Shown piece by piece: positions 1-6,002 of a DNA stretch of 64,000 nt (position 1 is its first letter; each line of letters starts with the position of its first letter). The position numbers and the translations under genes were made by a program. Origin of the DNA: Burkholderia sp. BCC0506 (GTDB lineage Bacteria; Pseudomonadota; Gammaproteobacteria; Burkholderiales; Burkholderiaceae); contig NZ_CADFEN010000006.1 of assembly GCF_902833145.1 (NCBI RefSeq), positions 248,001-312,000 of the forward strand. The letters run 5' to 3'. The notes under the pieces are model-generated. The model was not told the DNA's origin. It made no database searches and saw only the letters and a list, made by a program, of their open reading frames with translations.

Positions 1-3000
1 GGCGTCATCGCGGCGAACGCGCGCGTGAGCGTGGTCTCGTAGTCGTCGGCGAGCGCACGCTCCATCTTGCGCTCGACCGTGCGGCCGAACGGATCGAGCC
101 ACGTGCCGCGCAGGCTGCGCACGCGCGCCAGCATGCCGAGCACCGGCCACATCCACTGGCCGAACACGCGCTTCTTCGGCGTGCCGCCGTCGCGGCCGGC
201 CTTCGCGACCGTCGGCGGCGCCAGGTTGAACTTCACGCGGTACGCCTGCCCCGGCACGCCTTCGAACTGCGCTTCGAGCGCGGTGCGGAACGCGTCGTCC
301 GTGTACAGCCGCGCGACTTCGTATTCGTCCTTCACCGCGAGCAGCCGGTAGAACGTCGTCGCGACCGCGCGCGTCAGCGTATCGTCGCCCTTCGCGCGCG
401 CCGCACTCACCAGCGCCCGGTAGCGCTCGACGTAGCGCGCGCCGCCGTATGCGTCGAGACGCGCTTCGCGATCGGCGATCAGCTCGGCGAGCGTCTCCGG
501 CGCGGCGTGCGCGGCCACCGCATGACGCGCGTTCCACAACGCGTCGAGGCCCGCCGCGTCGCCGGCCGCCATCCGGCCGATCGAGAACGCGAGCTTGTTC
601 ATCGGCACCGCGACGTTGTTCAGTTCGATCGCGCGCATCATCGCGGCGAGCGACACCGGCACGAGGCCGAGCTGCCACGCGTAGCCGAGCATCAGGATGT
701 TCGCGCCGATCGAATCGCCGAGGAACTTCGCGGCGAGCGCCTGCGCGTCGCAGCTCGACAGGTAGCCGTCGCCGGCCGCGTGATGCATCTTCTCGAGCAA
801 TGCGTCCGCATGCAGGTTCGCGTCGGGGTTCTGCACGAACGACGCGTTCGGGATCCGGTGCGTGTTGACGACGATCCGCGTGCGCGCGTGACGCACCGTC
901 TGCAGCGCTTCGGCGCTCGCCCCGACGACCATGTCGCACGCGAGCAGCACGTCGGCCTGCTGCGTGTCGATGCGCACCTGGTTCAGCCAGCGGTCGCTCG
1001 ACGCGATCCGCACGAACGACAGCACGGAGCCGCCCTTCTGCGCGAAGCCCATGAAGTCGAGCACCGACGCGCTCTTGCCTTCGAGGTGCGCGGCCATGCT
1101 GATCAGCGCGCCGACCGTCACGACGCCGGTGCCGCCGACGCCCGTCACGAGCAGGTCGAACGGCGCCGCGTCCAGGTGCGTCGCCGGCACCGGCAGCGCG
1201 TCGACGCGCGCGGCGAGCGCCGCTTCGTCGAATGCCGCGCCGGCCGCCTTCTTCAGCGCCGCGCCTTCGACCGTCACGAAGCTCGGGCAGAAGCCGTTCA
1301 CGCACGAATAATCCTTGTTGCACGACGACTGATCGATGCGGCGCTTGCGGCCGAGCGGCGTCTCGAGCGGCTCGACCGACAGGCAGTTCGACTGCACGCC
1401 GCAGTCGCCGCAGCCTTCGCACACCGCGTCGTTGATGAACAGGCGCTTGTCCGGGTCGGGGAATTCGCCTTTCTTGCGGCGGCGGCGCTTCTCGGCCGCG
1501 CAGGTCTGGTCGTAGATCAGCACGGTGACGCCCGGCGTCTCGCGCAATTCGCGCTGCACCGTGTCGAGTTCGCTGCGGTGATGGAACGTCGTGCCGGTCG
1601 GGAACTGGCCGTGGTGACCGTCGTACTTCTCCGGCTCGTCGGACACGACGACGAAGCGCGACACGCCCTCCGCCTCGACCTGCCGCGCGATCTGCGGCAC
1701 CGAGATGCTGCCGTCGACCGGCTGGCCGCCCGTCATCGCGACCGCGTCGTTGTAGAGGATCTTGTACGTGATGTTCGCTTTCGCGGCGACCGCCTGGCGG
1801 ATCGCGAGGATGCCCGAGTGGAAGTAGGTGCCGTCGCCGAGGTTCTGGAACACGTGCTTCGTGTTCGTGAACATCGCGTGCGCGGCCCAGTCGACGCCCT
1901 CGCCGCCCATCTGGATCAGCCCGGTGGTGTCGCGCTCCATCCACGACGCCATGAAGTGGCAACCGATGCCGGCCTGCGCGATCGAGCCTTCCGGCACCTT
2001 CGTCGACGTGTTGTGCGGGCAGCCCGAGCAGAAATACGGCGTGCGCTTCACGCCGTCCGCTTCGTTCGACAGGATCTGCGGCGCGACGAGATCGACGACG
2101 CGCTCGCGCCGGTCGAGCGCCGGCTTGTGGCGCGCGAGCCAGTCGGCGAACACCGGCAGGATGCGCGACGGACGCAATTCGCCGAGCTCCGACAGCAGGC
2201 ACGCGCCGGCCGCGTCGTGCTTGCCGAGCACGCGCGGGCGCGCGCCTTCGGTGCGGTTGTACAGGTAGTCCTTGATCTGCTGCTCGATGACGGGGCCCTT
2301 CTCCTCGATCACCAGCACTTCGGCGAGCCCGTCGACGAAGGTTTCGATGCGCGTCATTTCGAGCGGATACGACAGGCCGACCTTGTAGATCCGCACGCCG
2401 GCCGCGTCGAGGTCGGCGACCGTCAGGTCGAGGCGGCGCAGCGCTTCCATCAGGTCGAGGTGCGCCTTGCCGCAGGTCACGATGCCGACGTTCGCGTGCG
2501 TGCTCGGCGCGATCCACTTGTCGATGCTGTTGGTGCGCGCGAAATGGCGCACCGCGTCGAGTTTCGCCGCGAGGCGCGCCTCGATCGTGAGGCTCGGCAG
2601 GTCGGGCCAGCGGTTGTGCAGGCCGCCCGCCGGCGGCGTGAAGCCTGCCGGCGCGGGCCAGCGCGTCTGCAATGCGTCGAGGTCGACGGTCGAGCCCGAC
2701 TCGACCGTTTCCGAGATCGCCTTGAAGCCGACCCACGCGCCCGAGTAGCGCGACAGCGCCCAGCCGTACAGGCCGAATTCGAGCATGTCGGCGATGTTCG
2801 ACGGGTTCACGACCGGCATGTGCCACGCGATCATCGCGAAGTCGCTCTGGTGCGGCATCGACGACGACACGCAGCCGTGGTCGTCGCCGGCTACCACCAG
2901 CACGCCGCCGTGCGGCGACGAGCCGTATGCATTGCCGTGCTTCAGCGCGTCGCCCGCGCGATCGACGCCCGGGCCCTTGCCGTACCACATCGCATACACA

Positions 3001-3350
3001 CCCTCGACCGTGCGCTCGGGGTCGGCTTCGACGCGCTGCGTGCCGAGCACGGCCGTGCCGCCCAGTTCCTCGTTGATCGCGGGCAGGAAGCGCACGCCAC
3101 TCGCGTCGAGCAGTTTCTTCGCCTTCCACAGCTGCTGGTCGACCATGCCGAGCGGCGAGCCGCGATAGCCGCTGACGAAGCCGGCCGTGTCGAGCCCCTG
3201 TTCGGTATCGACCATGCGCTGCATCAGCAGCAGGCGGATCAGCGCCTGCGTGCCGGTCAGGAAGATCCGGCCGCGCGTCGCGGTCAGGTTGTCGGTCAGG
3301 CGGTAGTCGGACAGGGTGGGCGTGCCGTCGACGGGCAGGCGGGCGGTCAT
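1..3350 (-). CDS. Indolepyruvate:ferredoxin oxidoreductase, fused alpha/beta-type protein (3' end beyond window)
   Basis: Reading the minus strand from ATG at 3350 gives MTARLPVDGTPTLSDYRL and an open frame of about 1116 codons that leaves the window at base 1. The family oxidatively decarboxylates aryl-pyruvates from amino acid transamination to acyl-CoA with ferredoxin, in the cytoplasm. The N-terminal half resembles the pyruvate-ferredoxin oxidoreductase core (GFVSGYRGSPLG near residue 60). A thiamine-diphosphate domain follows with YFCSGCPHNTST, then MGGEGVDWAAHA. A cysteine-rich stretch (CEGCGDCGVQSNC, then SCNKDYSC, GFCPSF) should bind Fe-S. The last third contains TGVGGTGVVTVGALI, typical of the gamma/IorB part, so the two subunits of archaeal enzymes are fused here. 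The upstream side is the 2-kb repeat tract, so its promoter must lie near 3351-3680. The family is clear; the exact substrate is not. Confidence 0.9.
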   Translation of the reverse strand, partial: MTARLPVDGTPTLSDYRLTDNLTATRGRIFLTGTQALIRLLLMQRMVDTEQGLDTAGFVSGYRGSPLGMVDQQLWKAKKLLDASGVRFLPAINEELGGTAVLGTQRVEADPERTVEGVYAMWYGKGPGVDRAGDALKHGNAYGSSPHGGVLVVAGDDHGCVSSSMPHQSDFAMIAWHMPVVNPSNIADMLEFGLYGWALSRYSGAWVGFKAISETVESGSTVDLDALQTRWPAPAGFTPPAGGLHNRWPDLPSLTIEARLAAKLDAVRHFARTNSIDKWIAPSTHANVGIVTCGKAHLDLMEALRRLDLTVADLDAAGVRIYKVGLSYPLEMTRIETFVDGLAEVLVIEEKGPVIEQQIKDYLYNRTEGARPRVLGKHDAAGACLLSELGELRPSRILPVFADWLARHKPALDRRERVVDLVAPQILSNEADGVKRTPYFCSGCPHNTSTKVPEGSIAQAGIGCHFMASWMERDTTGLIQMGGEGVDWAAHAMFTNTKHVFQNLGDGTYFHSGILAIRQAVAAKANITYKILYNDAVAMTGGQPVDGSISVPQIARQVEAEGVSRFVVVSDEPEKYDGHHGQFPTGTTFHHRSELDTVQRELRETPGVTVLIYDQTCAAEKRRRRKKGEFPDPDKRLFINDAVCEGCGDCGVQSNCLSVEPLETPLGRKRRIDQSSCNKDYSCVNGFCPSFVTVEGAALKKAAGAAFDEAALAARVDALPVPATHLDAAPFDLLVTGVGGTGVVTVGALISMAAHLEGKSASVLDFMGFAQKGGSVLSFVRIASSDRWLNQVRIDTQQADVLLACDMVVGASAEALQTVRHARTRIVVNTHRIPNASFVQNPDANLHADALLEKMHHAAGDGYLSSCDAQALAAKFLGDSIGANILMLGYAWQLGLVPVSLAAMMRAIELNNVAVPMNKLAFSIGRMAAGDAAGLDALWNARHAVAAHAAPETLAELIADREARLDAYGGARYVERYRALVSAARAKGDDTLTRAVATTFYRLLAVKDEYEVARLYTDDAFRTALEAQFEGVPGQAYRVKFNLAPPTVAKAGRDGGTPKKRVFGQWMWPVLGMLARVRSLRGTWLDPFGRTVERKMERALADDYETTLTRAFAAMT

Positions 3351-3689: not shown

Positions 3690-5398
3690 CTCACCGTCGA
3701 AATGCACAGGGTTCCGATTGGTCGGCGGCGCCGGATGTCCACGATGCGGCCCCCTTCGGCCGATCGGGCTCGCAGGCTCACCGTTCGATTGCACAGCGTT
3801 TCGAGTGGCGCCGGGGCCGGGATGTCCACATCCGGAATCGGCATGCGGGGCGCTCGGATCGCGACCCTCACCGGTGAAATTCACAGCGCGGCGAGTGGGT
3901 TTCGACGGCGAATATCCACATCGGAAATCGCGCGTTTCGTCGGGTCGCCTTTCGCGCGCACCGTTCGGATACACAGGGCTTCGACTGGCTGCTTGGGGTA
4001 GTTGTCCACGTCCGGACTCGCATTCTCTTCCCGCCGTGCGCGCACCCTCACCATTCAAAAGCACAGTGCTTCGAGTGATTGGGCGGGCCGGATATCCACA
4101 TGCACGCGCGTTCTCCAATCGATAGCTGACGCACGTTTCGAAGGGCAACGGCGAGGGGCGATCGAGGCCGGAAGCGGCTCGTCACTCGATCGAGCGCGGA
4201 CGCTCACCATCGAAATACACAGTGTCACGAGTCGTTTCGACGAATCGATATCCACACGAAGGGGGCGCTCTCGATCGATAGCAGAGGTCCGTTTCGAAGG
4301 GGAACGGCGAGGAGACAATCCATACCGGAAGCGGCTCACCCCCGATCAGGCACCGATGCTCACCGTCGAAATACACAGTGCCGCGAGTCGTTTCGACGGA
4401 CCGATATCCACACGAAGGGAGCGCTCTCGATCGATAGCAAAGGTCCGTTTCGAAGGAGAATGGCGAGCGGGCAATCCATACCGGAAGCGGCTCACGCCCA
4501 ACCCGGCACTGACGCTCACCATCGAAATACACAGTGCCGCGAGTCATTTCGATGGACGGATATCCACACTGGCAAGCGCTCGCGATCGATAGCAGCGTTA
4601 CGTTGCTAAGGGGAACGTCGGAGGCGGCAATCCATACCGGAAGCGGCTCATTACCCGATCGGGCACCGACGCTCACCGTCGAAATACACAGTGCCGCGAG
4701 TCGTTTCGACGGACCGATATCCACACGGCGAGCGCGCTGCCGTTGCTCGCCACCTTGCGCCCGCGCGTGACAGGAGTTCTCTTTCGCATAGCATCGGCGA
4801 TCGAACGGACAGGCTATGCGCCGATCGCGGGCTCACGCTCACCATTGAATTGCACAGCGCGCCGAGTCGCAGGAGAAGCCCGACGGGCGCGTCGAAATCC
4901 GCATGTCACGAACCACGCGTCGGCGCTCACCGTTAGAATGCACAGCCCTTCGATTGGGGCCGGAGCGTCGCGGGGCCCACATGCCATCGTCACGCAGCCG
5001 CGCCAGCGCCAGTCGGCTAGAATGCGCGTCGCGTCGCGCCGAGCCGCGGCAACGGCCGGAAACCCACGCCAGCGCAGGCGCGCGGCCGGATCGGGCGCGA
5101 CACTCACCGTTGAATTGCACAGCATTTCGCTTCGTCTTGCCGCGAGTTGTCCACACCCGCTTCATGTATCGCGCGGCATCCGGTCACCCTCACCTGTGAA
5201 AACCACAGGGTGCCGAGTCGTTCCGAGGCACGGATATCCACAACCGGACGCGCGACCGGATTTTCATCTGCCAATCGACGGACACCTCGGCACGCGACAG
5301 CCGGGGAAGCAGGAAAGGCTTGTCCGGCCGGCCTCGGCGGCACACTCACCATTCAAATGCACAGCGTTCCGAGTGGTCGCGGCGACGGGTTGTCCACA
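3690..5398. repeat. Array of about 14 degenerate 54-bp modules with quantised spacing
   Basis: Modules begin with CTCACC (once CGCACC) at 3690, 3777, 3867, 3957, 4047, 4203, 4359, 4515, 4672, 4838, 4926, 5103, 5189 and 5345. Most end exactly 54 bases later in TCCACA. Fixed points inside are CACAG near position 17 and CGAGT near position 27. Start-to-start distances fall in two classes, about 86-90 and 156-157, with two exceptions (166 and 177). The modules at 4359, 4515 and 4672 carry perfect 9-bp inverted repeats (CCGTCGAAA/TTTCGACGG or CCATCGAAA/TTTCGATGG). The final box is ATATCCACA or TTGTCCACA in nine modules, 8 of 9 bases of the DnaA box TTATCCACA. The 4838 module lacks that box and the 4926 module has a diverged one. 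Function unknown. Confidence 0.85.
4047..4725. repeat. Higher-order 156-bp tandem repeat inside the array
   Basis: Between the modules at 4047, 4203, 4359, 4515 and 4672 the 102-103 base spacers are themselves related. Each carries a block with ATCGATAGC, then CGTTTCGAAGG (diverged in the last), then CCGGAAGCGGCTC, in the same order. The unit here is therefore 156 bp and looks like four recent tandem duplications of module plus spacer. Spacers elsewhere in the array are 33-36 bases and do not share this sequence. Confidence 0.85.
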
Positions 5399-5444: not shown

Positions 5445-6002
5445 TCATTCGGCGATCGACCGGATGATCCTGGCCGGATTGCCGCCGACCAGCGTGTTCG
5501 GCGGAACGTCCCGCGTGACGACGGCCGCGGCCGCGACGACCGCGTTCTCGCCGATCGTCACGCCGCCGACGATCGTCGCGCCCGCGCCGATCCACACGTT
5601 CCGCTCGATCACGATCGGCTCCGCGACCACGCAGTCGCGCCGCCGCGAAGGCTCGACCGGATGACCGGAGGTAATCAGGCTGACGTTCGGGCCGATCATC
5701 ACGTCGTCGCCGATCTCGAGCCCGCCCAGATCGTAGAACGTGCAGTTCTGGTTGACGAACACGTTGCGCCCGAGCTTCATGCCGGTGCCGCCCGTCGCAT
5801 GAAACGGCGGGATCAGCACGAAGCCGTCGTCCACTTGCGTGCCGATCAGTTCACCGAACAATGCGCGGACGTCCGCCGCGTCGTCGAATGTCAGGCGGTT
5901 CAGGCGCGCGGTGATCGCCATCGCCCGTTTGACTTCGGCCACCATGGCCGCCGATTCGGGCGTTCTGCGCGGAATGATCGTGGTGCGATCGTCGTTTGCC
6001 AT
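5445..6002 (-). CDS. Sugar O-acetyltransferase, hexapeptide-repeat (maltose/NodL acetyltransferase family)
   Basis: A 185-residue protein starting MANDDRTTIIPRRTPE. The ATG at 6002 has GGAGA about 8 bases before it; an upstream in-frame ATG at 6140 exists but would add 46 residues with no family similarity. The C-terminal two thirds are a left-handed beta-helix with isoleucine/valine hexapeptide periodicity (IGDDVMIGPNVSLIT, VWIGAGATIVGGVTIG). The GHPV motif near residue 110 and the ending PARIIRSI match LacA/Maa/NodL enzymes, which transfer acetyl from acetyl-CoA to sugars or sugar-like acceptors as cytoplasmic trimers. The N-terminal mac-type cap is present but diverged. The acceptor cannot be told from sequence. 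It stands alone, with the repeat array just downstream. Confidence 0.85.
   Translation of the reverse strand: MANDDRTTIIPRRTPESAAMVAEVKRAMAITARLNRLTFDDAADVRALFGELIGTQVDDGFVLIPPFHATGGTGMKLGRNVFVNQNCTFYDLGGLEIGDDVMIGPNVSLITSGHPVEPSRRRDCVVAEPIVIERNVWIGAGATIVGGVTIGENAVVAAAAVVTRDVPPNTLVGGNPARIIRSIAE

Follow-up and report, generated by a model that had tools for sequence, protein, structure and literature searches.

Two arrays of a fixed 54-letter module flanking dnaA of the main chromosome hint at an undescribed way of replication timing in the Burkholderia cepacia group

In Escherichia coli, the datA locus titrates DnaA and hydrolyses DnaA-ATP. It consists of a handful of boxes together with an IHF site and is not known to have a 54-bp composite unit or a constant methylation word. 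The arrays described here resemble datA in being intergenic clusters of DnaA-box-like sites no more than a few hundred kb from the origin, but there are two of them, and their modules are candidate DnaA-binding sites. PMC6090056 speaks of datA as a locus for titration and likens to it the RctB titration locus of Vibrio cholerae chromosome 2. The likeness of our arrays to this locus and to V. cholerae crtS would lie in a cis site that ties the supply of an initiator to the replication of a locus, and V. cholerae provides a precedent in having two kinds of initiator site, 12-mers that contain the methylation word and 39-mers that lack it (PMC6090056). In contrast to crtS, the modules are DnaA-box-ended, repeated, and origin-proximal, and their position shows no correlation with the chromosome size difference. 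The timing of multi-chromosome replication is known mainly from Vibrio (crtS), and methylation-based control is cited for Agrobacterium. According to a 2026 survey, timers elsewhere would extend the field, and in B. cepacia much of chromosome 1 is contacted by the origin of chromosome 2 (PMC13342612).

For Burkholderia itself, PMC4948915 gives the chromosome-2 iteron as ctCCCGAAAAacCTCACCTtt, which contains CTCACC. Our modules share CTCACC with the chromosome-2 iterons, and CACAG, too, is abundant in the origins of chromosome 2; however, the iterons of chromosomes 2 and 3 measure 19–21 bp and on chromosome 2 carry CCCGAAAA (PMC4948915), whereas the modules lack that half and are located on chromosome 1. 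The origins of B. cenocepacia, with their CTGTGCA 7-mers and their DnaA boxes ending in CACAG (PMC4948915, PMC7364216), recall the commonest module centre, TGCACAG, but in the modules CACAG stands apart from the box, which itself avoids this word. Methylation of CACAG has been published for B. cenocepacia, where the word is present in almost every DnaA box of the origins. The same study reports that mutants of the CACAG methyltransferase had a larger relative nucleoid size, whereby their unchanged exponential-phase growth suggested a limited impact of methylation on replication (PMC7364216). A prior description of the array was not found in the open-access library searched; the maps in S1 Fig of PMC4948915 may show the boxes of array B.

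The window, i.e., the whole stretch of 64,000 nucleotides that was analysed, comprises bases 248001–312000 of contig 6 of Burkholderia sp. BCC0506 (genome of 7.29 Mb in 45 contigs). A sequence-only reading of this window had reported at least 14 modules with a defined series of distances, and both were reproduced exactly: 14 modules were found (Table 1), with start-to-start steps of 87, 90, 90, 90, 156, 156, 156, 157, 166, 88, 177, 86, and 156 bp. Eleven of the 14 extend over 54 bases to TCCACA or TCCACG, the exceptions being the modules starting at 5103, 4926, and 4838. The nine module ends regarded as DnaA-box-like in that reading were likewise recovered, with ATATCCACA occurring seven times and TTGTCCACA twice. 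The median identity between the window modules is 0.63, in agreement with the earlier judgement that the array is not CRISPR-like because its repeats diverge; a CRISPR array with near-identical repeats and unique spacers of a single length does not fit this value or the several spacer lengths. Between 4203 and 4725, units about 156 bp apart carry near-identical modules, which resembles a recent tandem amplification within a divergent array, and the 9-bp arms in this section show one paired change (4515 versus 4359).

Table 1. Location of the array A modules, the neighbouring genes, and the iteron-like sites of chromosome-3 origins
Feature	Position	Strand	Remarks
Array A	3690..5398	+	14 direct modules, CTCACC-N9-CACAG-...-TCCACA
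Module 1	3690..3743	+	nearest to oxidoreductase gene; end ATGTCCACG; E 4.4e-12
Module 2	3777..3830	+	end ATGTCCACA
Module 3	3867..3920	+	end ATATCCACA
Module 4	3957..4010	+	CGCACC start; end TTGTCCACG
Module 5	4047..4100	+	end ATATCCACA
Module 6	4203..4256	+	end ATATCCACA
Module 7	4359..4412	+	end ATATCCACA
Module 8	4515..4568	+	end ATATCCACA
Module 9	4672..4725	+	end ATATCCACA
Module 10	4838..4895	+	intact left half, degenerate right end; E 3.2e-8, model positions 1-48
Module 11	4926..4981	+	56 bases; right end GCCCACA; E 3.8e-7
Module 12	5103..5155	+	53 bases; end TTGTCCACA
Module 13	5189..5242	+	end ATATCCACA
Module 14	5345..5398	+	farthest from oxidoreductase gene; end TTGTCCACA; E 2.6e-13
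Indolepyruvate/pyruvate ferredoxin oxidoreductase-like gene	3..3347	-	N-terminal part in window; POR, TPP, DUF6537 domains
Hexapeptide-repeat acyltransferase gene	5448..6002	-	flanks array A
Iteron-like CCCG...GCTCACC sites	L239 13957-14027, L245 6335-6406		chromosome-3 origins

A sequence-only profile (R1) was built from 18 modules, 14 from array A and four from contig 12. Its E-values are rough, and the counts derived from it are not independent, since the sequences are related and many of the genomes are drafts. The scan of the own genome returned 18 matches at E<=3.8e-7 (14 in the window and four on contig 12), which follow by construction from the training set, whereas the absence of further matches does not. 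As the next best match had only E=0.05, the modules of array A are not a chance occurrence. This extra match (C13) falls within a gene that by eye looks aminotransferase-like and was dismissed as chance; the copies of this genome are confined to two arrays, A and B. Within the genus, 52 of 65 genomes, the own genome included, gave 8–20 matches at E<=0.001, and modules were absent from the other 13. A scan of 249 genomes of the family matched 26, all of them from the same genus (1 of 25 genera, represented by 31 of the listed genomes), and no modules were detected in the 24 other genera sampled. An exact-pattern search of a named genome collection yielded 53 stretches, all from Burkholderia, under B. 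cepacia complex names and those of relatives such as B. ubonensis; the former we take to be members of the complex. In a tree of 59 flanking-gene sequences, 46 from stretches with and 13 from stretches without the array, one change explains its presence, but the branch concerned has a support of only 71/74. Weak matches (E 0.003) were observed near 0.97 Mb in G010 and G018.

Based on 707/708 module hits, the most constant words of the module are CTCACC, CACAG, CGA-N-T, and T(A/G)TCCACA. CACAG occupies columns 16–20 in 645 of 707 modules, and in these 645 the bases of CTCACC in columns 1–6 are conserved to 97–99% each. Columns 26–30 read CGA, any base, and T (83–100%), followed by a loose stretch and GG(A/T)T(A/G)TCCACA. 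A TCCAC end was present in 581 of 707 modules, whereby the module length was 54 (423 modules), 53 (142), 52 (11), 55 (4), or 47 (1) bases. Among 588 end nine-mers, ATATCCACA was found 299 times, TTGTCCACA 85 times, and ATGTCCACA 66 times; the commonest end is one base off the DnaA consensus, and the perfect box TTATCCACA is in the minority (46 of 588). The flanks of the modules contain far lower information than the modules themselves. A coding role on the minus strand, where each module reads roughly CGYP....TR.AV.F.GE in one frame, was not supported: the array A steps divided by three leave remainders of 0, 1, and 2 in 209, 146, and 194 cases, and inspection showed no more variation at third codon positions than at the other two.

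The location of the arrays was analysed in 22 near-complete genomes (G002, G008–G012, G018, G022, G024, G026, G030, G032–G035, G037, G040, G042, G055, G058, G063, and G064), with distances to dnaA taken between nearest edges. All matches at E<=0.001 are located on the dnaA contig in 22 of 22. Array A lies upstream of dnaA on the same side in all of them, at 214–301 kb (230 kb in the window genome), a distance that in 11 of the 22 crosses contig ends and treats the contig as a closed circle. Array B is found on the opposite side of dnaA, 12–60 kb away in 20 of 22; in the other two, G009 and G058, it is farther away (about 298 and about 634 kb, respectively) and has the opposite orientation, which suggests that it was rearranged there. 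In the window genome, a sigma-factor-like gene and its successor (named by eye) stand before array B and tRNA-Val after it; a tRNA-Val was present in 8 of the 17 array B stretches retrieved. In 400 kb of G055, the cumulative GC skew reaches its minimum at about +78 kb from the contig start, which is the position of dnaA, and perfect DnaA boxes are located nearby at +74.7 to +77.7 kb. Seven variants of the parS palindrome, including the GTTTCACGTGAAAC type, were scanned in the same 400 kb; only the GTTTCACGTGAAAC type was present, at +101 and +104 kb and outside the arrays. Judging from the skew minimum, the DnaA boxes, and the parS-type sites, both arrays of G055 lie to the left of the likely origin. 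The 400 kb contain 47 DnaA-box-like sites (<=1 mismatch to TTATCCACA), and the fullest 2-kb bins are those of array A (8) and array B (6), followed by bins with 4, 3, and 3 sites. As for datA, a cluster of DnaA-box-like sites is thus found near but outside the origin, in the G055 bins as well as in the positions in 22 of 22 genomes. The sequence-only reading had proposed such a genus-wide profile, copy-number, and origin-position check; it revealed a low and fairly even copy number, a main array at a similar distance from dnaA, a TCCACA end that is kept across species, and discrete spacings. Since this check favoured the datA-like idea, the idea has survived a test that it could have failed. 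Two separate oriC-like elements were also observed, one at about 4418–4837 of L203 (window genome, contig 12), adjoining tRNA-Val beside array B, and one at about 74.6–74.9 kb of contig 1 of G055, near the GC-skew minimum; they have in common the AT-rich stretch GTATATATACGTAGT...AGTTAAC, DnaA-like boxes, and CACAG words. The published uncertainty on the chromosome-1 origin may result from such a pair.

The base following T(A/G)TCCACA in the modules was T in 225, C in 161, A in 140, and G in 3 of 529 cases, so that the module box, in contrast to most boxes close to the origin, is almost never itself a CACAG site; after removal of near-copies, G followed in 1 of 120 modules. In 418 kb of non-module DNA, of which 58 kb come from the window and the remaining 360 kb from G055, G followed in 6 of 7 occurrences. 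In the 400 kb of G055, 6 of 8 TTATCCACA sites are followed by G, the exceptions being an array B module and a box whose surroundings resemble the oriC-like element beside tRNA-Val. In 46 arrays (73.7 kb), for which base composition alone predicts 158, CACAG stands in its place within the module 556 times and in any other place 35 times. This separation of the central CACAG from a box end without G is seen directly in the sequence and is the most telling new observation, and the module words look like a methylation code. It could also be that the base after the box reflects a recognition preference of the binding protein, without a tie to methylation.

From the composition, conservation, position, and fixed geometry of the modules and the lack of G after the box, we propose that array A may be a cis-acting replication-control site of chromosome 1, namely a methyl-marked DnaA sink and one of an origin-near pair with array B. 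We hold this reading tentatively, as plausible but with somewhat less than an even chance of being right; DnaA binding, titration, gating by methylation, and the presence of the methyltransferase in this genome are what we infer. Each 54-bp module would be a composite protein-binding site, in which the right end (A/T)T(A/G)TCCACA with no G after it would serve as a weak DnaA box beyond the reach of CACAG methylation, the central CACAG would be methylated on one strand only by the CACAG methyltransferase, and a second factor may bind the CTCACC of the left end. Neither the left nor the central word resembles a DnaA site, so that the module is not explained by DnaA alone. After fork passage, one sister would remain unmarked at all modules of a given orientation until the methyltransferase acts. 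Being close to the origin, the arrays would double early after initiation and soak up initiator in a datA-like manner, whereby the transient loss of methylation would gate the sink and methylation would serve as its clock. They might perhaps also act as a sink for the initiators of chromosomes 2 and 3. Modules in both orientations occur in 17 of 50 array A stretches (L138, L139, L140, L145, L148, L149, L153, L154, L164, L169, L170, L171, L179, L180, L183, L184, and L185), mostly as an inverted inner run with the two outermost modules unchanged, and a sister-specific strand mark would therefore not be uniform. Against the sink it must be considered that 13 of 65 genomes of the genus lack the arrays, that ATATCCACA, the commonest end, deviates from the DnaA consensus, and that the growth of the methyltransferase mutants points to a limited impact of methylation on replication (PMC7364216).

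Array A might instead serve to regulate the indolepyruvate ferredoxin oxidoreductase-like gene from upstream, since the nearest module lies 336–354 bp upstream of the start of that gene in 43 of 46 array stretches that contain it (exceptions: G037 with 405, G023 with 436, and G013 with 485 bp). However, the same modules form array B elsewhere, beside the sigma-factor-like gene pair and tRNA-Val; G010 has the array, but the gene was not found within its 7.5-kb stretch; the gene is kept in 13 of 13 array-less genomes (86–93% identity); and the sole sigma-70-like match in the region is on the other strand, so that we regard this regulatory role as improbable. In these 13 genomes, zero modules at E<=1 were found in the 3–6 kb upstream of the oxidoreductase gene. 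In one of them (G041) the next gene follows about 350 bp on, and a 9-bp tandem repeat (CGGCGTAGT/CGGCGTGCT) was observed at the corresponding position beside the gene in an array-less genome (L262, 884–991). The acyltransferase gene on the other side was not found beside some array-bearing relatives and is therefore not part of the element. Far less probable still, indeed very unlikely, is that the modules are repeats of a non-coding RNA or belong to a family of mobile repeats. The repeats do have partly palindromic arms, and of the hairpin arms noted in the sequence-only reading, perfect 9-bp versions are present in a few copies (4359, 4515, and 4672); over 37 diverse modules, however, the arms do no better than shuffled ones (56.9% paired versus 55.7%, with 121 of 500 shuffles as high). 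Arms 5–13 with 33–41 exceed slid versions (56.9% versus 36–49%), which reflects a consensus palindrome without covariation. Nine single folds were not better than shuffles (z -1.53 to 1.62), RNAalifold returned a consensus structure with 0 pairs, the covariation of two candidate helices was not above shuffles, and the window gave 0 Rfam matches at the gathering score; RNA structure in the array is thus not supported. The mobile repeat family that had been suggested earlier did not hold up either: the modules occupy two loci per genome in the 22 near-complete genomes, and zero matches occurred among 72,556 plasmid and 50,697 phage records, so that a phage or plasmid origin is not supported. A fixed length, a drifting sequence, and no RNA covariation together fit binding to duplex DNA.

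The protein bound could be an unknown architectural or segregation protein (nucleoid-associated, a condensin loader, or an anchor) that organises the origin domain, with the likeness to DnaA boxes being incidental. A 54-bp composite site with discrete spacings would suit a higher-order complex, as would the origin-proximal position. In array A, 503 of 542 steps of 61–300 bp fall into 86–91, 155–157, 165–169, 177–181, 189–191, or 264–267 bp. The last step of 46 arrays measures 165–169 in 30, 156–157 in 10, 89 in three, 218 in two, and 181 in one, whereby the main classes of the last spacer are about 11 bp apart. In the 165–169 class the last spacer has a length sd of 0.94 at a median pairwise identity of 0.63 (0.54 when shuffled), which bears out across species the earlier remark, made on the 102-base spacer at 5243–5344, that length is kept without likeness in sequence. 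The steps of array A fit a ladder with a period of about 11.15 bp (R 0.77), which is near the in vivo looping repeat reported for the DNA of bacteria. However, when each spacer family contributes a single step (203 in total, from both arrays), R at 11 drops to 0.45 and the best period is 18; with steps >100 alone, 11.0 (0.83) and 10.5 (0.74) are not separated; 178 equals 2 x 89, and remnants of a module are present in some 178-spacers (17 matches at E<=5 among 73 spacers). As the arrays are related and the reduced set is without signal, the helical phase is a hint only. Moreover, array B has steps of 73, 92–96, 163–169, and 215 bp, outside the classes of array A, and no known site was matched in a scan that covered a few parS variants. 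Overall, we consider an architectural protein unlikely. A similar degree of doubt applies to the possibility that CTCACC makes the modules binding sites for the RepA proteins, the plasmid-type initiators of chromosomes 2 and 3, and that replication of the array licenses or titrates these as a counterpart of Vibrio crtS. It would be in line with the CTCACC of the published chromosome-2 iteron and its near-invariance in the modules. The chromosome-2 origin of the own genome contains 23 CTCACC and 23 CACAG in 3.25 kb versus 7 and 11 in the remaining 16.75 kb; those of two relatives have 22/22 CTCACC versus 7/7 and 34/29 CACAG versus 9/9. CTCACC-N5-12-CACAG pairs number one in the own genome and five and four in the relatives, and 10, 12, and 12 exact copies of CCCGAAAAnnCTCACC were counted in three chromosome-2 origins. 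As a marker of the chromosome-2 initiator, family PF10134 failed, and ParB served in its place. Owing to the CCCG...GCTCACC sites in two chromosome-3 origins, CTCACC is common to the origins of both chromosomes. On the other hand, the other half of the iteron is missing from the modules, R1 reached a best E of only 0.46 on eight chromosome-2/-3 stretches, and chromosome-2 foci occasionally double ahead of chromosome-1 foci (PMC4948915). The distance from array A to dnaA shows no correlation with half the amount by which chromosomes 1 and 2 differ in size (Spearman 0.12, P 0.71, 13 genomes), so that a crtS-like position set for a joint finish was rejected. The common 6-mer itself might be chance (on the order of 1% by our estimate). 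As a link to the other chromosomes, the CTCACC common to modules and chromosome-2 iterons is suggestive, no more.

Returning to the DnaA sink, its widest form would be that the paired arrays constitute a methylation-read replication timer of the multi-chromosome B. cepacia complex, in which each module combines three words (a CTCACC iteron core, a CACAG mark, and an unmethylatable DnaA box) and the passage of the chromosome-1 fork releases or captures DnaA and RepA and thereby sets the order of chromosomes 1, 2, and 3. This is a speculative extension that we judge rather unlikely. Compared to the earlier view of a single window, the analysis adds array B, CACAG as a methylation word, a box that avoids CACAG, and the CTCACC common to chromosome-2 iterons. 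The two clusters flanking dnaA of the main chromosome in the B. cepacia group would give the CACAG methyltransferase a defined target beyond promoters and origins. Together they form a tangible cis element of two loci that occurs clade-wide close to the origin of chromosome 1; its sites follow a fixed grammar and carry an apparent methylation code, and since the arrays can be removed, counted, and bound, the question of multi-chromosome timing becomes directly testable.
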